The notes under the pieces: generated by a model
Database searches by the model: none
Told to the model about the DNA's origin: nothing
Seen by the model: only the letters and a program-made list of their open reading frames with translations
Assembly (NCBI GenBank): GCA_003577305.1
Contig: QEVL01000002.1
Coordinates: forward strand, 1 to 64,000
Direction: 5' to 3'
Source of the DNA: Burkholderiales bacterium
GTDB taxonomy: Bacteria; Pseudomonadota; Gammaproteobacteria; Burkholderiales; Burkholderiaceae_E
Length of the DNA: 64,000 nt
Translations under genes and position numbers: made by a program
Shown here: positions 11,394-62,628 of the stretch, in pieces
Numbering within the stretch: position 1 is the stretch's first letter
Layout: each line of letters starts with the position of its first letter

Positions 11394-11567
11394 TTACTGC
11401 ACGTTGGCGAACATGTCGATCTTCGGCCAGCCGAGCAGCTTGGCGCTGCCGTGCAGCAGGACCAGCCATGCACTGACGATGCGCAACAGCGAAAGCGCTT
11501 CGGGCGCCCAGCGGTTGGCGAGCGCGGCCGCATCCGGGGCTGTCGTACCTGGGGCTGTAGGGCGCGC
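11394..11567 (-). pseudogene. DoxX family protein, N-terminal remnant
   Basis: One minus-strand frame encodes NRWAPEALSLLRIVSAWLVL followed by LHGSAKLLGWPKIDMFANVQ and a stop at 11394. This matches the first transmembrane segment and HG..KL.G.P motif at the start of DoxX membrane proteins. Full DoxX is about 130-150 aa, so the C-terminal two thirds are missing, and no convincing start codon precedes it. Likely a decayed fragment left by rearrangement. Confidence 0.5.
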
Positions 11568-45098: not shown

Positions 45099-45220
45099 CC
45101 GGAACACGCAGCCTTCCCGGATGCGCAAACCGGGCGCATGGCGGATTCGGTTTGTTGACTGACGGCCTTCCGGCCGATGCGGATGCTGGCGGCTCGTTCC
45201 CTTACCGCGAGTCGTCACCC

Positions 45221-46003
45221 ATGGCCACCGAACGCTCTGAACCGCTGCAACTCAATCTCGGATCGTTGCGCAGCACGATGTCGCTCACGCTGCACACGCA
45301 CCACGCTTCCCGCATCTGGCACGGCCGCGCGCCGGTCGAAGGGCGCCCCGGCATCATCGGCTTGAACGCCTACATCAGCGTGATGAACAAGATGAAACGG
45401 GGCTCGGAGCAGGACGACCCGTACAGCGACTGGTGGATGCTGCGCATCGAGGACAAGCTGGAGCAGACGAAGGCGGCGTTGAAGGGCCTGCGCGAGCAGG
45501 TGGACCAGGCCCTGGCGGACGTGCCCGCGGCGCTGTCATTGGGCGAGAACATGAACGTGCAGCCGGTGAAGCTACCGCTGTTCGTGAACGCCCAGCTCGG
45601 CTTCATGGCGGTGTACCTGCTGGCCGACTACGACGACCTGGCGCGGCGGCTGATCCTGGCCCACCACACCGCGTTGATCGACCGCAGCACGCTGGAGCGC
45701 TGGCTCAACGACGGCGCGCACAGCTTGCGCAGTCTGTTCAGCCTGGCCCAGCAGTACCGCTACTCCGGCGCGACGCGCGACGACTTCGCATCGAAGAACG
45801 CGGTGGCGCGCTCGGCGTTGGAGAAGTTCGGCGAGCTGCCGCAGGACGTGCTCGAAGGCACGCGCCGCTCGCGCTTTGCGCCACCGATCGCGCGGCGGAC
45901 GAACCGCACCGGCGCGCCGGCCGCTGAAGCCGCTGCCAGCAGCTACACGACATCGAAGGATGGCGCAGCCGATGGTGCCCCCGGCGAGGACGCACCGGCA
46001 TGA
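45221..46003 (+). CDS. PFL_4669 family (TIGR03761) ICE protein
   Basis: 260 aa starting at the ATG after the palindrome region. Conserved segments LGSLRSTMSLTLHTHHASRI, WHGR, GIIGLNAYISVMNKMKRGSE, DDPYSDWWMLRIEDKL and SLFSLAQQYRYSGATRDDFA match the integrating-conjugative-element family TIGR03761. Function unknown but always near ssb/topB. Overlaps the next gene by ATGA. Confidence 0.9.
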   Translation: MATERSEPLQLNLGSLRSTMSLTLHTHHASRIWHGRAPVEGRPGIIGLNAYISVMNKMKRGSEQDDPYSDWWMLRIEDKLEQTKAALKGLREQVDQALADVPAALSLGENMNVQPVKLPLFVNAQLGFMAVYLLADYDDLARRLILAHHTALIDRSTLERWLNDGAHSLRSLFSLAQQYRYSGATRDDFASKNAVARSALEKFGELPQDVLEGTRRSRFAPPIARRTNRTGAPAAEAAASSYTTSKDGAADGAPGEDAPA

Positions 46004-47059: not shown

Positions 47060-47226
47060 CGCCAAGGTCGTCCACCGAGTTCCAGTCGCCCTCCCGATAC
47101 GAGCCTCCCGCTGCGCCAGCCGCCGACAAGGCGGGCGCTGCGCCATTCGGCTTCCTTGCTGCTGTCATCTTCCTGCCCCGCCAAGCTGGGGCCATTCGAT
47201 GAACCGCACGTTCCAAAGGAGGCTTC

Positions 47227-49215: not shown

Positions 49216-49782
49216 CGCCCGCGATTCCCTCTGCCGCGCCGGCCGCTTCACTGGCGGCGAGGCAATCGTCCCGCAACCCGCGGGACACACCCCAGCGCGC
49301 ATTCCCTTCTGCAACGGTGCGCACGTCCGGCTCGGCCGATACCGGGCTGCGGGATGGAAGGTATTTGCTCCGCGAGTTGCGCGTCACGCGATTCTTCTGA
49401 TCGGTGTTCTTCCGCCGACTGCGAGGGGTCTCCCGAAGCCTTGCCTGCGCCGCAGCGCGGCGCGAGGTATCGGGAGACCCCTCGGGTCGTCGGTACTCGG
49501 TGCCGGCGCCTACCGGCGAAACAACAGGCTCCCTTTGTGCGCGGATGTGTGCCAGAGGCTTCCGGCCCCAGCCACGAAACGGGTCGGGTGCGAATGCTGA
49601 CGCAGCGAATGGCTTTGACGACGGCCTGGCCTGCAACAGCCCACAGGTGGTTTTCTTCCTCTTCCGCCGATGGCCTTCGGGTTATCGGCGCCTTGGTCGT
49701 GCCCGTCTCCAAAGCGGACGGCAGGTGGTTCCATTTCTCCGGCGACGGCGCCATGCCGCGCGTCCATCCTCGTGCCATGCGC
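49216..49782. other. Intergenic stretch downstream of topB
   Basis: About 570 bp without a supported gene; overlapping frames on both strands have no family likeness. It contains the long hairpin at 49422-49484 and leads into the first three-hairpin leader. Confidence 0.45.
49422..49484. repeat. Large hairpin, 15-bp perfect stem
   Basis: CGAGGGGTCTCCCGA (49422-49436) pairs perfectly with TCGGGAGACCCCTCG (49470-49484). The 33-nt loop holds an inner stem GCGCCGC-AGC-GCGGCGC. No T-tract follows, so it is not an ordinary terminator. Candidates: replication or transfer origin, or a structured RNA. Confidence 0.6.
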
Positions 49783-49849
49783 TGCTGACGATCGTCAGCA
49801 CCATGCCCTGGCAGCTTCGGTCTTCAAGGCTGCAACGCGGCTCGCCGCG
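49783..49849 (+). promoter_or_regulatory. Three-hairpin leader element, copy 1
   Basis: Stems GCTGAC/GTCAGC (49784-49799), GCAGC/GCTGC (49811-49833), CGCGG/CCGCG (49836-49849), with conserved TCTTCAAGGCT before the third. Ends 135 nt upstream of the 49985 gene. Covaries with copies at 51659, 54629 and 58148. Confidence 0.7.
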
Positions 49850-49922
49850 CTGACCGGACCCGTCCGCCTCGCACCGACCATCGCGGACGCTCGTCGTTTT
49901 CGGCGACGGTGCATTTTCTCAA

Positions 49923-49961
49923 CCACCCGAGGGGAAGCCGATCCCCTGGGGATGCGCGCTC
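49923..49961 (+). promoter_or_regulatory. CCACCC-hairpin leader with palindrome core
   Basis: CCACCC (49923-49928), GGGG, then ATCCCCTGGGGAT (49941-49953), which is the complement form of the core of the 17-bp palindromes at 45014, 45082 and 47043. It lies just before the ribosome site of the 49985 gene, so it could block or expose it. Confidence 0.5.
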
Positions 49962-49984
49962 CTCGATCTTTCAAGGAGCACGTC

Positions 49985-50221
49985 ATGTCTGAACCTTTCG
50001 CCGCCTCTCCCGCAGCATCGGTGCGCAGCGGCGCGCTGGCGCTGGCCTACACGGGCAAGCGCCTGCCGCTGCAAGTCCTGCGCAGTGCGGCCGGCCACTA
50101 CATCGGCACGCACGACGACGAAGGCCCGGTTTCACGGGAGTCCGTCGAGTATTTCCCGAGCCCCGAAGCCGCGCAGCGCGCGCTGGCCACCGACGCCTGG
50201 ACGCAGCGCGGCCACCCCTGA
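49985..50221 (+). CDS. Small ICE protein, unknown
   Basis: 78 aa, central stretch LALAYTGKRLPLQVLRSAAG then HYIGTHDDEGPVSRESVEYF and SPEAAQRALATDAW. The fold looks like a small beta-alpha domain. AAGGAG sits 6 nt before the ATG. First gene after topB, headed by both leader types. No function recognised. Confidence 0.75.
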   Translation: MSEPFAASPAASVRSGALALAYTGKRLPLQVLRSAAGHYIGTHDDEGPVSRESVEYFPSPEAAQRALATDAWTQRGHP

Positions 50222-50246
50222 CTTCCCTTCCCCCAGGAGCTTTCTC

Positions 50247-50639
50247 ATGAACCTGCCATTGCGTCAGGAGCTGTACGACCAGCTCGCGCGTGAAGACGCC
50301 CATTTCAGGCGTGCGCCCCAAGCCTTCTTCGAGGCCTGGAAGCGCGGTGCGGAGATTGCCGGTGCCCAGTGGTTCGGCGACGGCACCCGCGAAGGTTTGC
50401 AGCGTGCCAAGTCCAAGTGGGATCTGCGGCCCAACCTCCTGCTGCTCAACGACGCCCTCGGTGTCCTGAGCAGCGGCCAGCGGATGTTCCTGTCCGCGAT
50501 GGTGAGCTTCTACAACTCCCGCGAGGGAGGCGCGATGCTCAAGCGTTGCGGCTTCGAGGGCCTGTCCGACCTGGGCGGCCTCGATCTGGAACGGCGCCAA
50601 GTCATCGCGGACCTGACGCTGAACTACAACGGCTGGTGA
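50247..50639 (+). CDS. Hypothetical ICE protein
   Basis: 130 aa, mostly helical: RQELYDQLAREDAHFRRAPQ, AFFEAWKRGAEIAGAQWFGD, LSSGQRMFLSAMVSFYNSRE, GGAMLKRCGFEGLSDLGGLD. CAGGAGC precedes the ATG. Terminated by the hairpin at 50680-50718. Conserved in related elements by appearance; function unknown. Confidence 0.78.
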   Translation: MNLPLRQELYDQLAREDAHFRRAPQAFFEAWKRGAEIAGAQWFGDGTREGLQRAKSKWDLRPNLLLLNDALGVLSSGQRMFLSAMVSFYNSREGGAMLKRCGFEGLSDLGGLDLERRQVIADLTLNYNGW

Positions 50640-50679
50640 GCCGACCCCGGCCCGCCACCGAACTGCTTTTCCACCCCGT

Positions 50680-50718
50680 GAGGGACGTGCGCGCTGCAAG
50701 GCGCCGTGTCCCTCGTTT
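50680..50718 (+). terminator. Intrinsic terminator
   Basis: GAGGGAC (50680-50686) / GTCCCTC (50708-50714) with GC-rich inner pairing, followed by GTTTTCTTT. Ends the 49985-50639 unit. Confidence 0.7.
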
Positions 50719-50768
50719 TCTTTCAGACCTGTCCTTCCTGGGCGCCGGCCGCCTGGCTCCCATTTCAT

Positions 50769-50815
50769 CCACCCGCTGGGGTTCAATCCCCGGCAGGGGA
50801 TTGCCTCGGCCATCC
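50769..50815 (+). promoter_or_regulatory. CCACCC-hairpin leader
   Basis: CCACCC (50769-50774), then CAATCCCC-GGCA-GGGGATTG hairpin, competing with GGGGTTCAATCCCC. 18 nt before the ATG at 50833 and next to CCGGAGAAATCCC ribosome site. Confidence 0.5.
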
Positions 50816-50832
50816 TCTGCCGGAGAAATCCC

Positions 50833-51546
50833 ATGTCCTATTCCACCAATCCTTTCGTCCGTGGTTACGACGGCCTGTCGGTCGACCGGCTGCTAGCCAT
50901 TTCCTACGACGACGATTGCCCGCTGACCTACCTGCCACTGCACCCCTCGCAGTCGCATTTGCCGGACAGCCAAGTGACGCGCTACCCGTGCATCTTCTGC
51001 GACGACTTCGCCCTCATCACCGAGGGCCAGGACGTGCCGCCGGAACTGGACACGCAATGCCAAAGCCACGGCATCGCGCGCACCGTGGTCTACGCCGTCA
51101 TGGCCCACGAAGACGGCAAGCCGCTGCACGTGGCCGACACCTACTCGGACGAGGCTGCGCGCGAAGTGGTTCGGCGTCTGCGTTTCGACACCGGGCACTA
51201 CAGCCGGTGCTGGGAGATCAGCAGCGGCCACATCACCGGAGCGGCCTGGCACTTCCTCGCCGAGCTGGCGGACATCGCGACGCCGACGACGTTCCTGTTC
51301 ATCGCGTTCCGCATTCCGTACAGCCAGGCGATCGGCGTGAAGCTGATCGCCACGCCGTGGACGGACGCCAACCTGCGAATGGTCGAAGGCACGACCGCCA
51401 AGCGGCTGGATCGGGAACACCGCCGCAAGGGCATGCCCGATTGCCTGGTCGAGGTGCTGCGCCTGGCGGCGCTCGCCGACGTGCGCATGCTGGTCTTCGA
51501 CGCCGATGCGCCGGTGCTCGACGGATTGCCCGTGTTCGACGACTGA
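50833..51546 (+). CDS. Hypothetical ICE protein (DUF5983-like C-terminus)
   Basis: 237 aa. N-terminal half has a Cys pair (RYPCIFCDDFALI) and VVYAVMAHEDGKPLHVADTY. The C-terminal half, SSGHITGAAWHFLAELADIA ... VRMLVFDADAPVLDGLPVFD, recalls DUF5983 proteins of ICEs. The domain name is from memory and tentative. Closed by the terminator at 51556. Confidence 0.7.
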   Translation: MSYSTNPFVRGYDGLSVDRLLAISYDDDCPLTYLPLHPSQSHLPDSQVTRYPCIFCDDFALITEGQDVPPELDTQCQSHGIARTVVYAVMAHEDGKPLHVADTYSDEAAREVVRRLRFDTGHYSRCWEISSGHITGAAWHFLAELADIATPTTFLFIAFRIPYSQAIGVKLIATPWTDANLRMVEGTTAKRLDREHRRKGMPDCLVEVLRLAALADVRMLVFDADAPVLDGLPVFDD

Positions 51547-51555
51547 CGTTTCCTG

Positions 51556-51577
51556 AGCCCCGCTCGCGGGGCTCTTT
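51556..51577 (+). terminator. Intrinsic terminator
   Basis: AGCCCCG-CTCG-CGGGGCT stem (51556-51573) followed by CTTTCATTT. Confidence 0.75.
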
Positions 51578-51658
51578 CATTTGCGGAACACGGTCGCCGC
51601 CCGCTGCCGATTCTGGGACGACGCGGGCCGGCGCGTGCGCCACGCTGCAGGCATGTTC

Positions 51659-51723
51659 GCTGGCATTGTCAGCAGCATCCCAGACAGCCGAGACCTTCGA
51701 GGCTGCGGTGCGGCTCGCCGCAC
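51659..51723 (+). promoter_or_regulatory. Three-hairpin leader element, copy 2
   Basis: GCTGGC/GTCAGC (51659-51673, one G-U), CAGCC/GGCTG (51685-51705), GTGCGG/CCGCAC (51708-51723). Ends 107 nt before the 51831 ATG. Conserved ACCTTCGAGGCT. Confidence 0.7.
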
Positions 51724-51764
51724 TGGTTGTCTTTCCTCTCCCGGGCGCATCTCGCGCTCATCCA

Positions 51765-51812
51765 CCACCCCAAGGGACAGACCTCCCCTTGCGGGCGGAA
51801 AGCCCCTTGGTT
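51765..51812 (+). promoter_or_regulatory. CCACCC-hairpin leader
   Basis: CCACCCC (51765-51771) beginning an outer stem CCAAGGG / CCCTTGG (51770-51810), with inner GC-rich pairing; the ribosome site AAGGAGC follows. Confidence 0.45.
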
Positions 51813-51830
51813 TCCACAAGGAGCTTTCTC

Positions 51831-52628
51831 ATGGACACCCAAGCCATCCGCGCACAGATGCCGAAGCTGGTCATCGGTCACGTGCCTTCCAACGTGCGTT
51901 CGTTCAAGTTCAATGTCTTCGACGGCCAGCCCAAGGTTTCGACACTGGGCTTCCACATCGACCCCAAGCCCTTCGACGGCAAGGTGATCGCCAAGACCGA
52001 CGAGGCCATCGTCGTCAAGACGGGCCGCGCCGAGTTCGCGGTGCTCGACCGCTCGCTCGTGACCGACGCACCCGACGAGGGGGCCAAGGTGCATGTCGAG
52101 CCCTACGTCAGACGCCGCTTCGACGGACTGCGCGCCGATACGCCCGAGGAAGAGACCGCGTTCACGTCCGACGGCCAGCCGTACACGATCCGACGCCTCA
52201 TCCTCGGCGCCGCACCGGCGAAGCTGCCGATCCCCGAGCCGGCTTGCCCTCAGTTGCAGGATCTGATCCAGCAACTGGAGCAGTTGCCCGCGCCGGACGG
52301 CTTTCGCCGCGTGACGCACCTGCTGGTGGATGCCGGCGCCCGGGACTTCACCTGGGTCGATCCGCTGCCGAAGGACATCATCGCCGCGCCGCCCGCGATC
52401 AGCTTCACGGTCGCAACGGCGAAGTTCCAGGGGCGCGTCACCGTGCTCTACGAGCGTGGCCCCGACCTGTACGCGGTGGAACTGCACCGCGACGGCGAGC
52501 TGGTCGAACGGGTCGATGAACTGTTCTTCGACATGCTCGGCGAGGTGCTGGAACGGCTGATCGACGACGGGAGCTGGCGCCTCATCCGCGTGCAACGCCT
52601 GTCCGGCGGCAAGCCTGTTCAGCACTGA
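51831..52628 (+). CDS. Hypothetical ICE protein
   Basis: 265 aa: DTQAIRAQMPKLVIGHVPSN, VRSFKFNVFDGQPKVSTLGF, IDPKPFDGKVIAKTDEAIVV (beta domain), then FTSDGQPYTIRRLILGAAPA, KLPIPEPACPQLQDLIQQLE, ARDFTWVDPLPKDIIA. Homologues are sometimes labelled GTPase, but I see no P-loop. AAGGAG 9-10 nt before the ATG. Headed by three-hairpin copy 2. Confidence 0.75.
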   Translation: MDTQAIRAQMPKLVIGHVPSNVRSFKFNVFDGQPKVSTLGFHIDPKPFDGKVIAKTDEAIVVKTGRAEFAVLDRSLVTDAPDEGAKVHVEPYVRRRFDGLRADTPEEETAFTSDGQPYTIRRLILGAAPAKLPIPEPACPQLQDLIQQLEQLPAPDGFRRVTHLLVDAGARDFTWVDPLPKDIIAAPPAISFTVATAKFQGRVTVLYERGPDLYAVELHRDGELVERVDELFFDMLGEVLERLIDDGSWRLIRVQRLSGGKPVQH

Positions 52629-52692
52629 ACGCTATGCGGTTTCCCGTCCGCGCGGCGGGAAGCCCTTCGTTCCATTTCTCGGACGTCATTCC

Positions 52693-53058
52693 ATGTCTGT
52701 TCAATTCAAGGGCGCAGAGCTGCGGCCCGTGCTTGCCGCGGCCGTGGTCAACCAGTGCCGCGTCATCCTCGTGAAGGACCAGGGCGTGTACTTCATGTCC
52801 GAACGCGGCGAGAGCGAAGCTGGCGGCCGGCGCAAGCTGATCGCTTACGCGGTGGGCTGCAACCCCGACGTCGATGCATTTGACGACTGGTGGGAGTTGG
52901 CGCGCGCCGAGTTCGGCGGCGACGACTTCGGCGAGTTCTTCGATCCGCAGGATGGCGTCTTCGCGCTGGTCCTCAACGGCGAAGGCGACCTGGCGGTGTC
53001 GGCCACGGAGACGCACCTGTCGCTGCTGGCCGTCGCACCTGCGCCGACCGGCCACTGA
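52693..53058 (+). CDS. DUF3085 domain protein
   Basis: 121-aa protein with FKGAELRPVLAAAVVNQCRV, ILVKDQGVYFMSERGE, AYAVGCNPDVDAFDDWWELA, FGGDDFGEFFDP, matching DUF3085, a small domain restricted to plasmids, phages and ICEs. Function unknown. Weak ribosome site. A hairpin TTTCCCG..CGGGAA at 52632-52653 separates it from the previous gene. Confidence 0.82.
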   Translation: MSVQFKGAELRPVLAAAVVNQCRVILVKDQGVYFMSERGESEAGGRRKLIAYAVGCNPDVDAFDDWWELARAEFGGDDFGEFFDPQDGVFALVLNGEGDLAVSATETHLSLLAVAPAPTGH

Positions 53059-53086
53059 CGGTCCACCTGCCTTCCTCCTTACCCCC

Positions 53087-53115
53087 AAGCCCTCCATCGC
53101 GGGGGCTTCTTTTCT
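53087..53115 (+). terminator. Intrinsic terminator
   Basis: AAGCCC (53087-53092) / GGGCTT (53103-53108) stem followed by CTTTTCTT; ends the DUF3085 gene. Confidence 0.75.
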
Positions 53116-53144
53116 TCCAGCGCTGCGGCCTTGCCGCGCGCCGC

Positions 53145-53210
53145 GTTCGTCTCCAGCCCGTCCGGGCCCGCTCTGCCGGCACCCGCCGGCCCAACCGCCC
53201 GGAGACGAAC
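53145..53210 (+). promoter_or_regulatory. Structured leader that pairs the ribosome-binding site
   Basis: GTTCGTCTCC (53145-53154) is perfectly complementary to GGAGACGAAC (53201-53210). The latter contains the GGAG ribosome site 9 nt before the ATG at 53214. Inside the loop is a perfect GCCGGC-ACCC-GCCGGC hairpin (53175-53190). Such pairing would hide the RBS. Confidence 0.65.
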
Positions 53211-53213
53211 CGA

Positions 53214-54056
53214 ATGCGCGACCCCTGCGCGATCGACCAACCCACTTGCATCAGCTTCAGTGGCGGCAGAACCAGCGCGTACATGCTCTGGCGCTTGCTG
53301 CAAGCCAACGGCGGCCTGCCTGCGGACGCAGTGGCCTGCTTCGCCAACACCGGCAAGGAAGTGGAAGCCACCTTGCGTTTCGTGCGCGACTGCGCCGAGC
53401 ACTGGCACGTGCCGATCCACTGGCTCGAGTACCGGCCCGACGCACCAGGTCTTGCGGTGGTCGATTTCGCGACCGCGAGCCGCGAGGGCGAACCCTTCGA
53501 GGCACTGATCCGCAAGCGCCAGTACCTGCCCAACCCGGTGGCGAGGGGCTGCACCGTGTCCCTCAAGGTGAGAACGATGCACAAGTTCGTGCGTGCGCTG
53601 GGTTGGACCGAGTGGGACCAGTTCATCGGCATCCGCGCCGACGAGCAGCGCCGCGTCGTCAAGATTCGGGCGCGCGGCCATTCCACCGAATCGGTCAGCG
53701 AGACCATGTGCATGCCCCTGGCCGAGGCCGGCGTCACCGTGCACGACGTGACGGCGTTCTGGCAGGCGCAGCCCTTCGACCTGGAACTGCGGACCGTCAA
53801 CGGTCGGACGCTCGAAGGCAACTGCGACCTCTGTTTCCTGAAGCCGCGCGGCCAGCGCCTGGCGCTCATCAAGGCCAGGCCGGAGGCGGCGGTGTGGTGG
53901 ATTCGCATGGAGTCGCTGAACCTCGCCAGCAAGCCAAGCGGCGCGCGCTTCCGGGCGGACGGCCCCAGCTATGCGGACCTGGCGCGATTCGCGGCCGACC
54001 AGCGCGACCTGTTCGATGGTGCGGACGAGCCGATCGCCTGCTTCTGCGGTGACTGA
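53214..54056 (+). CDS. PAPS reductase-like PP-loop protein
   Basis: 280-aa adenine-nucleotide alpha-hydrolase of the phosphoadenosine phosphosulfate reductase family. PP-loop ISFSGGRTSAYMLWRL (SGGRTS 16-21), ACFANTGKEVEATLRFVRDC, FIGIRADEQRRV. Cysteines in GCTVSLK, GNCDLCFLK (CxxC) and terminal CFCGD could hold an Fe-S cluster. Family members activate sulfur substrates or modify nucleotides; true sulfate assimilation is unlikely on an ICE. The ATG overlies the leader at 53145-53210. Overlaps the next gene. Confidence 0.85.
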   Translation: MRDPCAIDQPTCISFSGGRTSAYMLWRLLQANGGLPADAVACFANTGKEVEATLRFVRDCAEHWHVPIHWLEYRPDAPGLAVVDFATASREGEPFEALIRKRQYLPNPVARGCTVSLKVRTMHKFVRALGWTEWDQFIGIRADEQRRVVKIRARGHSTESVSETMCMPLAEAGVTVHDVTAFWQAQPFDLELRTVNGRTLEGNCDLCFLKPRGQRLALIKARPEAAVWWIRMESLNLASKPSGARFRADGPSYADLARFAADQRDLFDGADEPIACFCGD

Positions 54057-54543
54057 CACACGCACCGCACCCTCGCGGCTGGTCCTGGTGCCGCTGTCGC
54101 TGCGCGCGGCCAACGCCTTCGTGCTGGCGCACCATCGACATCACCGGCCGGTGCAAGGCGGCAAGTTCAGCCTGGCGGTGGCCCTGGACGAAGGCGACGG
54201 CGCCGCACCCCAGCACCGCATCGTCGGCGTGGCCATCGTCGGCCGGCCGGTGGGCCGACACTTGGACGACGGCAGGACGCTCGAAGTCACGCGCCTGTGT
54301 ACCGACGGCACGCCGAACGCCTGTAGCAAGCTCTACGCGGCAGCGTTCCGCGCGGCGCGCGCGCTGGGCTACACCCGCCTCATCACCTACACGCTGCCCG
54401 CCGAAGGCGGCGCCAGCCTGCGCGCCTCGGGCTGGCGCCTGACCGGGCTGTGCGGCGGCGGCAACTGGAACCGCCAGCGCCGTCCGCGGCAGGACACTCC
54501 CGCCGCTCTGCGCGGGCCGAAGCTGCTCTGGGAGGCTGCGTAA
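54049..54543 (+). CDS. XF1762 family protein (GNAT-like)
   Basis: 164 aa from GTG at 54049, which overlaps the previous stop by 8 bp. Starts VTDTRTAPSRLVLVPLSLRA; has ANAFVLAHHRHHRPVQGGKF, GVAIVGRPVGRHLDDGRTLE, RLCTDGTPNACSKLYAAAFR, YTLPAEGGASLRASGWR. The layout is acetyltransferase-like, as in XF1762 proteins of phages and ICEs. An upstream in-frame ATG (53971) would overlap deeply and is rejected. Probably acts with the PP-loop protein. Confidence 0.82.
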   Translation: MTDTRTAPSRLVLVPLSLRAANAFVLAHHRHHRPVQGGKFSLAVALDEGDGAAPQHRIVGVAIVGRPVGRHLDDGRTLEVTRLCTDGTPNACSKLYAAAFRAARALGYTRLITYTLPAEGGASLRASGWRLTGLCGGGNWNRQRRPRQDTPAALRGPKLLWEAA

Positions 54544-54628
54544 CGCGCGCCGCCAATGCGGGACGGCGCCGATGCCCATTGCCGCTCGCGCCCGCGCGAT
54601 CCCCGCGCCACGCTTGCCGCCATGTTCC

Positions 54629-54696
54629 GCTGACACCCGTCAGCAGCATGCCCAGTTAGCCACGATCTTCAAGGCTATGGCGCGGTTCCGACCGCG
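54629..54696 (+). promoter_or_regulatory. Three-hairpin leader element, copy 3
   Basis: GCTGAC/GTCAGC (54629-54644), TAGCC/GGCTA (54657-54677), CGCGGT/ACCGCG (54681-54696), conserved ATCTTCAAGGCT. Ends 156 nt before the DUF3577 gene. I recall a published candidate RNA named DUF3577 motif; this position fits it, but no comparison was possible. Confidence 0.75.
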
Positions 54697-54852
54697 TTGA
54701 TCGACCAGTTCGCACCGGCATCCTTGCGCGAACGTCCATCGGTTTCGACCGATGGTGATGCCACCAAGCTGTTCCTTCAACCCACGCGGGGGTTCCACAC
54801 CTTCCCCGCCTGGGTCGGGTGTGTCTCCGCTTCTTTTCTCAGGAGATTCACC

Positions 54853-55425
54853 ATGACCACTTCCACCGACAAGTCCTACTTCGACCTGCACATCACGGGC
54901 CTCGGGTATCTCAATCGCATCCGCGAAGTGAAGCCCAAGAAAGGCGACGCCTTCCTGGCCTGCGACATTGCGGCGCTCAACGGTCCCAATGACAACGTGT
55001 CCTATGTCCGTTTCGACACGCGCGTCTCGGGCTCCGAAGCGCAGCACCTGGTCAGCCGCTGCGTGCAAGCCGTCGAGGCCGAAAGGAAGGTGATGATCGG
55101 CTTCCGCCTGGGCGATCTGTGGACCGACATCTTCACCTACACCAAGGGTAAGAACGCCGGCAAACCCGGCGTTAGCCTCAAGGCCCGCCTGCTGTTCATC
55201 AGTTGGATCAAGGTCGACGGCAAGCTCGTCTACAAGGCCGAACCCAAGCCGACCGAGGCCGACGATCGCCAGGATGGTGAGGAGCGCACCCCGGAAGTCC
55301 CCGCGACGACCGAAGCGCCCGCTGCTCGCCAAGCCCCCGCACCGCAGGCCACCCAGCCTGCTGCCGAAGCTGCCGATGAAGCCGCTGCCTATGCCCCCGC
55401 ATTGGCCGTTGCCGAGTCGTTCTGA
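54853..55425 (+). CDS. DUF3577 (STY4534-family) ICE protein
   Basis: 190 aa: STDKSYFDLHITGLGYLNRI, REVKPKKGDAFLACDIAALN, YVRFDTRVSGSEAQHLVSRC, VMIGFRLGDLWTDIFTYTKG. This is the DUF3577/STY4534 family, an OB-fold-like protein linked to ICE replication. The C-terminal third is a Pro/Ala/Glu-rich tail. TCAGGAG precedes the ATG. Headed by copy 3 of the leader. Confidence 0.9.
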   Translation: MTTSTDKSYFDLHITGLGYLNRIREVKPKKGDAFLACDIAALNGPNDNVSYVRFDTRVSGSEAQHLVSRCVQAVEAERKVMIGFRLGDLWTDIFTYTKGKNAGKPGVSLKARLLFISWIKVDGKLVYKAEPKPTEADDRQDGEERTPEVPATTEAPAARQAPAPQATQPAAEAADEAAAYAPALAVAESF

Positions 55426-55428
55426 TCC

Positions 55429-55461
55429 ACAAGGCCCCACCCCACGGGGCCTTGTCTCTTT
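55429..55461 (+). terminator. Intrinsic terminator
   Basis: ACAAGGCCCC (55429-55438) / GGGGCCTTGT (55446-55455), then CTCTTTC. The loop region includes a CCACCCC box like the gene leaders. Confidence 0.75.
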
Positions 55462-55479
55462 CGTCAGCAGGAGACCTTC

Positions 55480-56091
55480 ATGATCACCATCCCCGGCCAA
55501 TTGGCCATCAAGACCATCCACGGCAGGAACGGCGACTTCAACGTCGGCCGCCTGGCGACCTCGATCGGCGAGTTCGTCGTGAAGAACGCCGAGCTGGACC
55601 AGTACGCCGAAGGCAAGTACGAGGGTGATTTCATCATCACGGAAATCCGTCCCTCCACGTACAACGCCAACGGCCGCATGGTCATCGAGATCCGCGCCCA
55701 CCTGGGCGGGATGACGCTGTCCAACATCGACGCCCTGAGCCGCGACGACGCCCGCCGGCTGAGTCCGCAGGAAGTCGATCCGCTGGACGAGGAAACGCCG
55801 GCCCCTGCGCCCGCCGCACCGAAGGCACCCGCCCGAGGCAAGGCCCGCAAGTCGCGCGATCCCCTCGTCGATACCACGCCGTTCGGCAGCGAACCGGCCG
55901 CCACGTCACCCGCGGCTTCCGCCGATGCGGACGACGCAGCGCTGTTCGGCACGCTCTGGCCGCTGGGCGAGACCGTCAAGCTCGATGCCACCGTGGATCG
56001 CCGCGTCCTGCGTCAGCAGCGCGACCGGCTCGGCGAGCTGGGCTACGAGTTCGCTCCGCTGTCCCAGGACTGGCACCTCGCTACCGCCTGA
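55480..56091 (+). CDS. DUF3275 family ICE protein
   Basis: 203 aa. N-terminal domain ITIPGQLAIKTIHGRNGDFN, VGRLATSIGEFVVKNAELDQ, YAEGKYEGDFIITEIRPSTY is the DUF3275 signature. A Pro/Ala/Lys linker follows, and a C-terminal helix (VDRRVLRQQRDRLGELGYEF). Probably nucleic-acid binding; not characterised to my knowledge. Confidence 0.9.
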   Translation: MITIPGQLAIKTIHGRNGDFNVGRLATSIGEFVVKNAELDQYAEGKYEGDFIITEIRPSTYNANGRMVIEIRAHLGGMTLSNIDALSRDDARRLSPQEVDPLDEETPAPAPAAPKAPARGKARKSRDPLVDTTPFGSEPAATSPAASADADDAALFGTLWPLGETVKLDATVDRRVLRQQRDRLGELGYEFAPLSQDWHLATA

Positions 56092-56129
56092 CCAGTCGCC
56101 TGATCCACCGCCGCGCAAGCGGCATTCCA

Positions 56130-56158
56130 CCACCCGCCGGGGTTCTTCCCCCGGCGGG
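56130..56158 (+). promoter_or_regulatory. CCACCC-hairpin leader
   Basis: CCACCC (56130-56135) overlapping a 10-bp perfect stem CCCGCCGGGG (56133-56142) / CCCCGGCGGG (56149-56158). 34 nt before the ATG at 56193, no T-tract, so more likely a leader than a terminator. Confidence 0.55.
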
Positions 56159-56192
56159 GCGGAACTCCGGCCTTTGTCACAGGAGAAATCCC

Positions 56193-56588
56193 ATGGGCTG
56201 GACCTATGTCCGTACCTCGCGCGATCAACTGATCCGCGAGCTGACCGCAACGGAAGACACCGATCGCGGGCGCCGCGAAGTCATCGACCACGCGCTGATC
56301 GACAACGTGCTGTGGAGCGTGGTGCGCATCACCGCCAAGCAAGCAGGCCTGCGAGGGCTTGCGGCCGGCGATTCGGTCTGCATCATCTACTGCGACCTGC
56401 TGGAAGCCTCGGGCAACGAGTGGGGCTACAAGCCCCTCGTCGAGGCCGAGCATCCCTACTACTACTCGTGCCCGCTGCGCTTTCTCGCAATGGCGCCGGA
56501 GCAATGCGCCACCTGGCGCGCACGGGTGCACAGCTACCACGCACGCTTCGGTGGAGCAGGCAGCGCCGACGAATCGACGGCAGGGTGA
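56193..56588 (+). CDS. Hypothetical ICE protein
   Basis: 131 aa: GWTYVRTSRDQLIRELTATE, VLWSVVRITAKQAGLRGLAA, VCIIYCDLLEASGNEWGYKP, HPYYYSCPLRFLAMAPEQCA, WRARVHSY. Three to four conserved-looking cysteines and a basic surface. Small proteins of this look recur in ICEs; function unknown. ACAGGAG precedes the ATG. Confidence 0.75.
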   Translation: MGWTYVRTSRDQLIRELTATEDTDRGRREVIDHALIDNVLWSVVRITAKQAGLRGLAAGDSVCIIYCDLLEASGNEWGYKPLVEAEHPYYYSCPLRFLAMAPEQCATWRARVHSYHARFGGAGSADESTAG

Positions 56589-56595
56589 GGTTCAC

Positions 56596-56856
56596 ATGGA
56601 CAACATCTTGTCAACGCTCTCGGCCTCTCTGCTGGGCTTCGTCGAGGATCAGTTGTCCAACAACGACGTGTCCTCCGACGACGAGCTGTTGGAGCACTTC
56701 GTCGCCAACGGCCTCACCGAGGCGCAGGCGCGGCAGGCACTGACCTATCGCGACCTGTACCTGGGCCGCATCTACCTGGAAGGCTTCACGCCGATCCGCA
56801 CGGGTGCGCAGGCGTTGCGCTTCAACCCGCACAGCCGGCAATTCGAGTCGGACTGA
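56596..56856 (+). CDS. Small ICE protein, unknown
   Basis: 86 aa, acidic N-terminal half (LLGFVEDQLSNNDVSSDDEL) then FVANGLTEAQARQALTYRDL and YLGRIYLEGFTPI. 7 bp after the preceding stop, so co-transcribed. Terminated at 56908-56931. Confidence 0.72.
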   Translation: MDNILSTLSASLLGFVEDQLSNNDVSSDDELLEHFVANGLTEAQARQALTYRDLYLGRIYLEGFTPIRTGAQALRFNPHSRQFESD

Positions 56857-56907
56857 ACCACAGGCCCGCTCGTCCGGCCTGCATTCCTCTTCGTCAGACC
56901 CCCGTCC

Positions 56908-56933
56908 GGCCCTGCACCGCAGGGCCTTTTTCG
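56908..56933 (+). terminator. Intrinsic terminator
   Basis: GGCCCTGC-ACC-GCAGGGCC (56908-56926) followed by TTTTT. Confidence 0.85.
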
Positions 56934-57003
56934 TCCCCCGCAATCGCGCGCATCGGCAGCTCGCCTGTCGGTGCCCATTGCTTTTTCCTCACAGGAGATC
57001 GTC

Positions 57004-57843
57004 ATGCAACTCGCATCCCGCTTCGCCCCTCGTTCGCCGGTGCTGCGTTCGGACCATCCGTTGTCGGATGACCAGATTCGCACCGTCGCCCCGTCCATCT
57101 TCGCGGAGACCCCGCATGAAAGCCGTTCCCAGCGCTACAGCTACATCCCGACCGCCGCGGTTCTCACCGAGCTTCGCAAGGAAGGGTTCCAGCCGTTCAT
57201 GGTGTGCCAGACCCGCGTGCGCCATGAAGATCGGCGTGAGTTCACCAAGCACATGCTGCGCCTTCGTCATGCCAGCCAGATCAACGGCGCGGAGGCCAAC
57301 GAGATCATCCTGCTCAACTCCCACGACGGCAGCAGTTCCTACCAGATGCTCGCCGGCTTGTTCAGATTTGTTTGTATGAACGGTCTGGTCTGCGGCGACA
57401 CCACGGCCGACGTGCGCGTTCCGCACAAGGGCAACGTGACCGATCACGTCATCGAAGGCGCCTACGAGGTGCTGCGCGGCTTCGGCCAGGTGCAGGATTC
57501 TCGCGACGGCATGCGCGCCATCACGCTCGATGAGGGCGAGGCTGAAGTCTTCGCCCGATCGGCGCTGACGCTCAAGTACGACGACTCGGGCAAGGCCCTT
57601 CCGATCACCGAGAGCCAGATCCTGCGGCCGCGTCGTTTCGACGACAACCGACCGGATTTGTGGTCGGTCCTGAACCGAGTCCAGGAGAACCTGGTCAAGG
57701 GCGGCCTGAGCAGCCGCGCCGCCAACGGTCGCCAGCAGCGCACGCGGCCCGTGCAAGGCATCGACCAGAACGTGCGGCTCAACCGGGCGCTCTGGCTTCT
57801 GGCTGACGGCATGCGGCAACTGAAGGCTTCAAGAACGGCCTGA
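57004..57843 (+). CDS. DUF932 domain protein
   Basis: 279 aa. Contains SQRYSYIPTAAVLTELRKEG, FQPFMVCQTRVRHEDRREFT, EIILLNSHDGSSSYQMLAGL, FRFVCMNGLVCGDTTADVRV, the DUF932 phage/plasmid-protein signature. ACAGGAG precedes the ATG. DUF932 genes are widespread on mobile elements; no biochemical role known to me. Ends at a T-rich terminator. Confidence 0.92.
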   Translation: MQLASRFAPRSPVLRSDHPLSDDQIRTVAPSIFAETPHESRSQRYSYIPTAAVLTELRKEGFQPFMVCQTRVRHEDRREFTKHMLRLRHASQINGAEANEIILLNSHDGSSSYQMLAGLFRFVCMNGLVCGDTTADVRVPHKGNVTDHVIEGAYEVLRGFGQVQDSRDGMRAITLDEGEAEVFARSALTLKYDDSGKALPITESQILRPRRFDDNRPDLWSVLNRVQENLVKGGLSSRAANGRQQRTRPVQGIDQNVRLNRALWLLADGMRQLKASRTA

Positions 57844-57849
57844 ACTCCG

Positions 57850-57886
57850 GCGGACCTGCTCGCAAGGGCATGGTCCGCTTTTTCTC
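57850..57886 (+). terminator. Intrinsic terminator
   Basis: GCGGACC (57850-57856) / GGTCCGC (57872-57878) with inner TGC/GCA pairing, then TTTTTCTC. Confidence 0.8.
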
Positions 57887-58147
57887 GGGGCGCCGAATGC
57901 CGCGGGCCCGCGGGGCTGTCAGCAGTGGCTTCCCTAACCCGGCGATCGACGACCTTGCGGACAATCACCTCTGGCTGCAACCTCCCTGGCTTTTCCTCCC
58001 TGAGCCAAGCAGTCAATTTCGCCACCTCGGTTCGTTCCGGGGCGGCTCTTCTATTTCTGCGGTCTGGTGCCTGCCAATACGGGCACGGCGCACGGCCGTT
58101 TTGCGCTCGTCCCACGGAAGCCAATGAAGCAGGCTGCGCCCATGTCC
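57887..58147. other. Intergenic stretch before leader copy 4
   Basis: About 260 bp between the DUF932 terminator and the fourth leader element; a promoter is expected but no consensus hexamers stand out, and no gene is supported. Confidence 0.35.
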
Positions 58148-58213
58148 GTCGGCAATGCCGACAACATGCCCAGGTAGCCCAGACCTTCAAGGCTACGGTG
58201 CGTCGTGACGCAC
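58148..58213 (+). promoter_or_regulatory. Three-hairpin leader element, copy 4
   Basis: GTCGGC/GCCGAC (58148-58162), GTAGCC/GGCTAC (58174-58196), GTGCGT/ACGCAC (58198-58213), with ACCTTCAAGGCT conserved. Compared with the other copies both sides of each stem changed together. Ends 105 nt before the 58319 ATG. Confidence 0.75.
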
Positions 58214-58252
58214 TGGTTGTTCTTCTCGCCAAGACGCTCACCACGTTCCTTT

Positions 58253-58300
58253 CCACCCCATGGGGCAGTGACTGCCTCAGCGGGCGGTGCTGCCTCCTTC
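58253..58300 (+). promoter_or_regulatory. CCACCC-hairpin leader
   Basis: CCACCCC (58253-58259), TGGGGCAGTGACTGCC hairpin, then a second GGGCGGTGCTGCC run, before the ATG at 58319. Confidence 0.45.
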
Positions 58301-58318
58301 TTCATCGAGGACATCACC

Positions 58319-58975
58319 ATGCCCGTACCCACTGCTCCGAAACCGCTGTACCGCATCGACGAATGTCCCGACCTCATGGCCGATGGCTGCGTCGGCGACG
58401 AGAACGGCAACCTCGTCTTCCTCTCCATCTGGGCGCGCGACACCGCCGTCCAGCAGTTCCTGGCGCGCCTGACCCTCGGGCGCGACGAGCAGGGGCTGGA
58501 CCAGTTCCACATCGTCAACGCGCAGGGCGGCTCCATCCCGGTCTTCGTCGGCAACGTCGAGAACCTGGAGAAGCGCAGCACCCGCGCCTACCGCCGCACG
58601 TTGTTCGGTTCGCTGACCAACCTGTGGCTGTTCGACCGGCGTTGTGTGAGGCCCGACAAGGCCAATGCGAGCGCGCTGGTACTCCTGCCGCGCGATACCA
58701 CGCACCGGCTCGACCGCCTGTGGACGCTGGCGCAGGACACCTGCCCGCTGCCGCTGCTCGACCACTGGCGCGACCTCGTGCTGGAACTGCTGCAAAGCAG
58801 GTCGATGCTGACCCGCCTTCCGTTTGCCCTTGGGCCGCTGGAAGGTCATCGGCTCGCCATCGACGTGCCGGCGCTGACCCAGGCGCTGGGCGGCTTGATC
58901 CGCCAGGACGTTCTCACCACCGGCGAGCCCGCGAAGCGGATCACCTGCCAACGGCCGCTCGAAGCGGTGGCCTGA
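58319..58975 (+). CDS. Hypothetical ICE protein
   Basis: 218 aa: YRIDECPDLMADGCVGDENG, NLVFLSIWARDTAVQQFLAR, RAYRRTLFGSLTNLWLFDRR, LDHWRDLVLELLQSRSMLTR. No motif recognised. Headed by three-hairpin copy 4 and a CCACCC leader, closed by the terminator at 58987. Confidence 0.75.
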   Translation: MPVPTAPKPLYRIDECPDLMADGCVGDENGNLVFLSIWARDTAVQQFLARLTLGRDEQGLDQFHIVNAQGGSIPVFVGNVENLEKRSTRAYRRTLFGSLTNLWLFDRRCVRPDKANASALVLLPRDTTHRLDRLWTLAQDTCPLPLLDHWRDLVLELLQSRSMLTRLPFALGPLEGHRLAIDVPALTQALGGLIRQDVLTTGEPAKRITCQRPLEAVA

Positions 58976-58986
58976 ACTCGTCCCAC

Positions 58987-59015
58987 CGGACATGCACGCG
59001 CGCATGTCCGCTTTC
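58987..59015 (+). terminator. Intrinsic terminator
   Basis: CGGACATGC (58987-58995) / GCATGTCCG (59002-59010), then CTTTCC. Confidence 0.75.
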
Positions 59016-62590: not shown

Positions 62591-62628
62591 GCCGGCGGCC
62601 CCACCAGGCCGCCGGCTTCTTTTCTTTC
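62591..62628 (+). terminator. Intrinsic terminator
   Basis: GCCGGCGGCC (62591-62600) / GGCCGCCGGC (62607-62616), then TTCTTTTCTTT. Confidence 0.85.

Follow-up and report, generated by a model that had tools for sequence, protein, structure and literature searches.

radC RNAs of an ICEclc-type element: four copies at the predicted 5' ends of transfer-competence transcripts, with a possible role in antitermination

We consider here the window, i.e., the whole stretch of 64,000 nucleotides (nt) of Burkholderiales bacterium DNA that was analysed (assembly GCA_003577305.1, contig QEVL01000002.1, positions 1 to 64,000 of the forward strand), where four similar RNA-like repeats lie within one mobile element. 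Because the window has matches to STY4528, ssb, topoisomerase III, STY4534/DUF3577, XF1762 and PilL2, together with AcaB at 45206-46000, the region is assigned to an integrative and conjugative element (ICE) of the PFGI-1/ICEclc type. All four repeats are on the plus strand, each followed by a gene. Copy 1 (49766..49912) precedes g49985 (49985..50221), a 78-aa gene homologous to open reading frame (ORF) ORF88400 of ICEclc; copy 2 (51642..51731, with the Rfam match extending to 51796) precedes a KfrB-like gene (51831..52628) that has a weak KfrB-domain match below cut-off and is homologous to ORF84835; copy 3 (54611..54761) precedes the gene of a DUF3577/STY4534-family ICE replication protein (54853..55425, assigned by family match), homologous to ORF81655, and that one copy heads the DUF3577 gene had been said in an earlier note on this DNA; and copy 4 (58131..58221, with the Rfam match extending to 58285) precedes g58319 (58319..58975). 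Neither g49985 nor g58319 has a Pfam or NCBIfam match at E<=0.01. Recomputed from the copy ends quoted in the earlier note, the distances to the next start codons at 49985, 51831, 54853 and 58319 are 136, 108, 157 and 106 nt, respectively, in agreement with the 105-156 nt given there.

The four repeats are radC RNAs, the family RF01754 of Rfam. In a cmscan of the 64-kb window this family is the best identity of all four copies, with plus-strand matches at 54611-54761, 49766-49912, 58131-58285 and 51642-51796 scoring 115.4, 108.3, 86.7 and 75.1 bits (E of 2.6e-21, 1.1e-19, 8.8e-15 and 3.7e-12; gathering score 40), so that the four copies of one layout and their coordinates, as first described, are real and far above chance. 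Besides RF01754, 16S rRNA alone exceeds its gathering score in the whole window, and a permissive search of 40-64 kb gives no other Rfam family at the four copies at E<=1. As the earlier note had allowed, the motif itself is not new. The name given for it there, a DUF3577 RNA motif, was wrong: no DUF3577-named family matches at the gathering score in the whole window or at E<=1 in 40-64 kb, the presence of such a family in the library being unchecked. The radC RNA is listed in Weinberg et al. 2010 (PMC2864571), and it is counted in PMC7657543 among the families with extra covarying pairs; it shares with the window copies the sequence, the three hairpins, the occurrence in Proteobacteria and the Rfam type Cis-reg.

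A search of the genome itself gives no further RF01754 copy above cut-off beyond these four. A degenerate fifth copy of 28.1 bits lies at 78084-78167 of the contig (L024:14084-14167), 14 kb past the window end; it has neither of the two promoter types described below, and two ORFs just 3' of it (78729-79885) resemble by eye transposase genes of insertion sequences. Just 5' of copy 4 there is also a sub-threshold match to RF02837 anti-hemB (57983-58054, 28.4 bits with gathering at 49.5), which is probably due to chance.

The three-stem layout described in the earlier note is right, with three of the stem sequences to be amended on reading the sequence: stem 1 of copy 2 is GCTGGC/GTCAGC (one G.U), stem 2 of copy 1 is GCAGC/GCTGC and stem 3 of copy 1 is CGCGG/CCGCG. 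The covariation on which that note relied holds in an alignment of 25 sequences, where 93.3% of the cells are paired versus 17.6-50.0% when slid, and where the double-change cells number 65 versus 18.4 +/- 4.9 after shuffling, with 0 of 500 shuffles being as high. For the 24-pair structure, consisting of the stems and the loop-2 pseudoknot described below, 12 pairs have double changes and 0 of 500 shuffles match on four of five measures; the fifth measure in these 25 sequences, the further pair types, is not above the shuffles (451/500). The folding energy is unimpressive, with z of -1.6 to -3.1 on the plus strand and +0.6 to -3.0 on the minus strand.

With a core model built from 25 copies, 231 matches are found in the window and 80 DUF3577-centred loci, all 231 of them on the strand of DUF3577. 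It is noted that these loci are the best 80 of 428 and hence are skewed to close relatives of the window's DUF3577, and that the relatives are not independent, so that the cell counts overstate the evidence. Over 153 distinct cores (5 of 297 matches having been dropped from the alignment), the three stems H1-H3 contain 98 G.T versus 14 A.C cells among 2447, with 34/3 in H1, 22/2 in H2 and 42/9 in H3, from which the sense strand is identified as the structured one. A point on the other side is that the first, outer helix P0 has no such asymmetry in the same cores (7 G.T versus 5 A.C). Taken together, the structure of the RNA strand is well supported, and we hold it with high confidence. Of the two forms of selection that the earlier note had allowed, the one on RNA is supported by the G.T excess and the covarying pairs, and the one on a cruciform is disfavoured by the same 98 to 14 asymmetry.

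Two pseudoknots, which are absent from the structure line of RF01754 as cmscan prints it, are added to the three hairpins. In loop 2, which carries the conserved CTTC(A/G)AGG, the 4 bases just 5' of the conserved TTC(A/G)A pair with the 4 bases just 3' of hairpin 3. The fixed alignment used for the G.T and A.C counts gave 31 G.T and 33 A.C for these pairs owing to poor alignment at its 3' end, and therefore each sequence was searched separately, taking the best of five offsets. In this way the pseudoknot is fully paired in 149 of the 153 cores, versus a mean of 99.3 and a maximum of 109 with shuffled partners, and its arms occur in eight combinations (GATC/GATC, GGTC/GACC, GACC/GGTC, GACC/GGTT, GGTC/GATC, GGTG/CACC, GATC/GGTC and GGTT/GACC). 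The second pseudoknot, of H-type, lies 3' of the core. Of 142 distinct leaders that precede DUF3577, g49985, g50247 or RadC/other genes, 140 have it, and none of the 54 leaders of KfrB or g58319 genes does. In copy 1 it spans 49861..49912 (CGTCCGC at 49861 with GCGGACG at 49883, and GCACCG at 49871 with CGGTGC at 49907), and in copy 3 it consists of GTTCGC at 54708 with GCGAAC at 54728 and of GGCATC at 54717 with GATGCC at 54757, both copies being on the plus strand. The radC RNA model has a 3' hairpin domain at about 95-149, which is clear in copies 1 and 3, while the search for it in copies 2 and 4 gave nothing. We thus distinguish a full form (copies 1 and 3) from a short form (copies 2 and 4), and this difference explains the lower Rfam scores of copies 2 and 4. 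The idea that the 3' domain is a general terminator was rejected, since a U-run is visible by eye chiefly among the g49985 leaders. As a separate observation, a divergent radC RNA subgroup has, by eye, a shorter loop 2 and a GGGT-type pseudoknot arm (L150:678-763, L028:5373-5459, L028:6271-6356 and L159:10295-10383).

We now turn to the promoters. A 36-bp promoter element was learned from the sequences that precede the RNA, each being forced to contribute one site; the training included the window copies and held out ICEclc, with only ICEclc and the regions L160-L179 being independent of it. In the window this element, of the transfer-competence type, lies on the plus strand at 49710..49745 (score 20.1), 51586..51621 (22.5), 54554..54589 (31.1) and 58075..58110 (26.2), i.e., 20, 20, 21 and 20 nt before the model starts of copies 1 to 4. 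In the five non-RadC classes, all 92 non-redundant upstream regions have it at 20-22 nt from the RNA; of the 9 RadC/other upstream regions 1 has it, at 19 nt. In the regions L160-L179, the ICEclc-like members keep the element at a gap of 20, and the other elements have a TTGACA-like box, mostly at -24 or -25. When one mismatch is allowed and the box is required to start at -27 to -22, the 82 non-redundant copies divide into 49 with the transfer-competence element 19-23 nt upstream, 22 with the TTGACA-like box, 0 with both and 11 with neither; outside these six offsets the box occurs 10 times across the rest of the scanned stretch. Of the 11 copies with neither promoter type 7 belong to the RadC class, which is the exception to the start-of-unit geometry. 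Both promoter types keep the same spacing to the RNA, and the RNA therefore holds one position relative to the transcription start under two promoters. Weaker matches to the element were also seen in the window at 45127 (12.8), before the AcaB/inrR-like gene, and at 47127 (11.2), before topoisomerase III, both of them lacking a radC RNA; a minus-strand match at 11483 scores 13.2, and these two matches may thus be due to chance.

The genome used for the ICEclc DNA was taken to be that of Pseudomonas knackmussii B13, since its plus-strand ORF ends lie within 1 base of 12 of 29 published ICEclc ORF coordinates, one of them being the anchor. There, radC RNAs precede ORF89247, ORF88400, ORF84835 (KfrB-like), ORF81655 (tandem DUF3577) and a RadC gene, which ends at pk 51081, 15 bp off the expected place of ORF58432, and is taken as that ORF. 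According to the transcript table of Gaillard 2010 (PMC2892462), ICEclc transcripts include 53587-58432, 68241-81655, 83350-84835 and 85934-88400. Provided that the RadC gene is ORF58432, published transcripts are thus headed by four of the five ORFs that follow an RNA (88400, 84835, 81655 and 58432), and for these four heads induction in stationary phase is reported in the same source. Together with the common promoter element at fixed spacing, this supports the idea in the earlier note that the copies form a regulon.

In the held-out ICEclc sequence, the promoter element scores highest at three places: ahead of the 88400 RNA (24.4), ahead of the 84835 RNA (21.8) and at the promoter of inrR (17.7), at the last of which no radC RNA was found. 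These are followed by a minus-strand match (13.8), a match near 67231 (12.0) and further ones scoring between 12.0 and 9.4, of which one lies near 73676 (10.0). The elements before the RNAs of 89247 (9.6) and 81655 (9.3) are outscored at several other positions of the 80 kb and are distinguished only by the exact 20-nt gap. The inrR promoter also points to the start: in the text of Gaillard 2010 (PMC2892462), the start mapped by rapid amplification of cDNA 5' ends (5'RACE) is a T that precedes the start codon by 25 nt; the -10 box is TGTCGATCCT and the -35 box TTGACT. It is noted that the table there gives 96,204 for this start versus pk 13481 from the text and sequence (about 96,017 in the present mapping), and that the text was used. 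The inrR promoter of ICEclc has the same element, again 20 nt away, and with ATCCT occupying model positions 1-5 the mapped T falls at model position 12. We thus strongly infer, on the basis of this promoter geometry, that transcription starts at about model position 12, with the first bases of the message lying in the 5' strand of the first helix; the predicted +1 positions in the window are 49777, 51653, 54622 and 58142 for copies 1 to 4. For ORF81655 the predicted start, at about ICEclc 82,797, is 224 nt before the start codon, versus a very weak primer-extension product at about 250 nt described in Gaillard 2010 (PMC2892462). The position of the RNA at the very 5' end of the message, as predicted from sequence, is also well supported, and our confidence in it is high. 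Transcripts that start downstream of the repeats, which the earlier note had named as what would speak against its idea, are contradicted by these predicted starts.

The element can further be compared with the ICEclc transfer-competence promoters analysed in Sulser 2022 (PMC9286271), where a 27-bp motif is described in 8 of 9 bimodal promoters and where Table 1 includes 88400, 81655 and 58432. The same source describes read-coverage steps upstream of 88400, 81655, 84835 and 89247, with no step at 58432, and fragments of 84835 and 89247 without bimodal reporter activity. The present element recurs at inrR, near ORF67231 and before the RNAs of 88400 and 81655. The published motif is reported at 58432 as well and in no further ICEclc region, which does not fit the present element, since this was not found at 58432 and also scores before 84835 and 89247. 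That the 27-bp motif and the present element are one and the same is our guess.

Based on these results, we propose that each radC RNA would form the very 5' end of one transcription unit, as its leader, and that these units belong to the transfer-competence programme of an ICE of the ICEclc family. The RNA would act in cis on the elongating RNA polymerase, in the manner of HK022 put, Tn916 canT and conAn2, and only the complexes started at these promoters would pass the intrinsic terminators inside the units, with stray transcription being stopped. This account as a whole, comprising both the leaders of transfer-competence units and the action in cis on the polymerase, is the best explanation that we can offer, although we put its probability somewhat short of even. 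The narrower reading, in which radC RNA would represent a processive antitermination class of Proteobacteria that gates the internal terminators of ICEclc-family transfer-competence transcripts and lets the element be expressed by programmed transcription alone, is more doubtful than that. We hold antitermination at about this tentative level, ahead of message stabilisation and of control by a factor in trans.

The terminators are what point to antitermination. Five strong intrinsic terminator-like hairpins lie on the plus strand in 49.7-64 kb. By comparison, 40-49.7 kb has none, the 28.5 kb of the element that follow have one, and the 86 kb of flanks have one, which is on the minus strand. 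The five are at 51555..51574, ending the unit before copy 2; at 55430..55454, 4 nt past the DUF3577 stop; at 56908..56926, within the copy-3 unit; at 58987..59010, about 12 nt past the first gene of the copy-4 unit; and at 62591..62616, later in that unit. Because there is no room for a promoter between the hairpin after DUF3577 and the start of DUF3275 at 55480, DUF3275 must be reached by read-through. Counted over distinct gene ends in the 80 loci, the window's contig and ICEclc, a terminator follows DUF3577 in 26/48 and KfrB in 13/36, both being first genes of RNA-headed units, and follows DUF3085 in 24/43, the helicase in 26/48 and DUF5983, the end of a unit, in 26/38. RadC ends have a terminator in 22/26 rows with the RNA (two of the 26 being one locus, L154, and one locus being too short) and in 1/3 without. 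In comparison, the genes STY4528, inrR, g46000, ssb, topB and PilL2, i.e., the inrR-topB stretch plus PilL2, have together a terminator at 0 of 219 ends; further counts are 1/45 for g50247, 2/9 for g56596 and 2/22 for DUF932. In ICEclc, where terminators lie at 81,652, 84,750 and 58,394, such terminators lie within the spans of the transcripts joined by reverse-transcription PCR in the table of Gaillard 2010 (PMC2892462). Internal terminators in a conjugation operon are described as a good indication of processive antitermination, and the canT RNA of Tn916, an integrative element, as able to mediate it, in sections of PMC11658703 and PMC8955417. As far as these sources go, HK022 put, Tn916 canT, pLS20 conAn2 and EAR are, like the radC RNA, structured RNAs early in the transcripts of mobile elements or operons with intrinsic terminators. 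Those four antiterminate, whereas for the radC RNA this is proposed by analogy and the link to terminators is inconsistent between element families.

Several counts weigh against antitermination. The first genes g49985 (0/35) and g58319 (2/48) rarely or never end in a terminator, and the same is true of the later unit genes DUF3275 (1/54), g56193 (1/42) and the methyltransferase (4/49). For 26 RNAs in 20 other Pseudomonadaceae regions (a subset, as nhmmer found more in the same loci), strong terminators lie downstream in 7/26 versus upstream in 5/26, i.e., there is no enrichment. Lowering the threshold, with 13 of these 20 regions used, gives 34 same-strand and 17 opposite-strand terminators in the 73 kb downstream, and 5 and 2, respectively, in the 37 kb upstream, so that both strands rise. 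On plasmids, DUF3577 is followed by a terminator in 2/5 loci with the RNA versus 2/6 without, a seventh locus without the RNA being unjudgeable. Moreover, where the RNAs are closely spaced and a terminator stands just before the next promoter, the units look short, which leaves little for antitermination to do.

The same geometry admits other roles for the leader. With a helix from about +1 and no single-stranded 5' tail, the radC RNA could stabilise the message by slowing the removal of pyrophosphate and the entry of RNase E, leading to accumulation of the transcripts, and such a role agrees well with a leader geometry that is maintained under two different promoter types. However, the loop sequences and pseudoknots seem more conserved than an end-cap should need, the RadC-class copies include most of those lacking both promoter types, and 5'RACE was likewise unsuccessful before ORFs 66202 and 73676, two places at which the search gave no RNA; we consider this role unlikely, if still a serious contender. 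We give the same low standing to a common binding site for a factor of the element or the host, a protein or a small RNA, that co-ordinates translation. An identical core does precede genes of different families, loop 2 has its conserved CTTC(A/G)AGG, and the ribosome-binding site is predicted to be masked in 30/30 KfrB, 30/30 DUF3577, 29/30 g58319 and 27/30 g49985 leaders sampled. The spacing between RNA and start codon varies by class, however, and the masking is equally strong at genes without the RNA (DUF5983 30/30, helicase 30/30 and DUF932 20/20, with lower values at topB and g46000), for which reason masking was rejected as the specific output of the RNA.

Two further alternatives are less probable still. 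The compact pseudoknotted fold and the two alternative 3' regions would suit a ligand-sensing riboswitch with the 3' region as its expression platform. Nevertheless, several copies per element stand before unrelated genes, there is no metabolic theme among the matches found and no general terminator follows the 3' domain, which makes a riboswitch improbable. An Frpo-like single-strand promoter has its structure on the template strand, which is the transferred strand, with the promoter boxes in the stem. A role at the DNA level, as a cruciform or as an Frpo-like promoter active on the transferred strand, would suit the conjugative setting and the inverted repeats adjoining the promoters. The radC RNA copies do not have the Frpo arrangement: the G.T excess over A.C on the sense strand of H1-H3 opposes a cruciform as well as a folded template strand, and the promoter boxes are located before the hairpins and not within them. 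The DNA-level role was rejected on these two grounds and is the least probable of all. We thus keep antitermination as the leading proposal, at the tentative level stated above.

In the window's family, 8 of 74 genomes carry RF01754 (7 above cut-off); it is also found in 2 of 369 genomes drawn across the class, with the genome studied here counted in both, and in 133 of 398 genomes drawn from the family of P. benzenivorans, where the larger genome searches use filters that lose some weak matches. In the literature searched, with most subscription papers lying outside the search, there is no paper under the names radC RNA, motif, leader or riboswitch, RF01754 appears in two papers only, both of them computational, and no prior report was found of the predicted +1, the full and short forms, the promoter spacing rule or the link to the ICEclc transfer-competence transcripts. 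The RNA family itself is known. The placement at the 5' ends of ICEclc transcripts, for which a single-cell expression programme has been worked out, offers a laboratory system, namely Pseudomonas putida with ICEclc and the existing promoter fusions. If the radC RNA controls read-through or stability, a post-initiation layer would be added to the switch that decides the transfer of a widespread element, and such a layer could explain the mismatch between transcript levels and promoter activity that appears in the data of Sulser 2022 (PMC9286271).

Finally, some features around the four units are noted. Between 14 and 34 kb of the window, adjoining the element, long ORFs resemble by eye a metal-efflux cluster (RND pump, P-type ATPases and a MerR-like regulator). 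In the copy-2 unit, at 53214-54543, a PAPS-reductase-like gene (below cut-off) adjoins an XF1762-family gene, an odd pair that is also present in ICEclc. The leaders at 50770-50832 and 56110-56192, which belong to DUF5983 and to the gene at 56193 and have no radC RNA, contain a CCACCCGC-GGGG-CCCC hairpin and a hairpin masking the ribosome-binding site, a form that resembles the segment just 5' of the start codon in the RNA-headed genes. Alternative pairings of the arms in these leaders (i-ii, iii-iv and i-iii), seen by eye, suggest a possible translational switch at the Shine-Dalgarno sequence.

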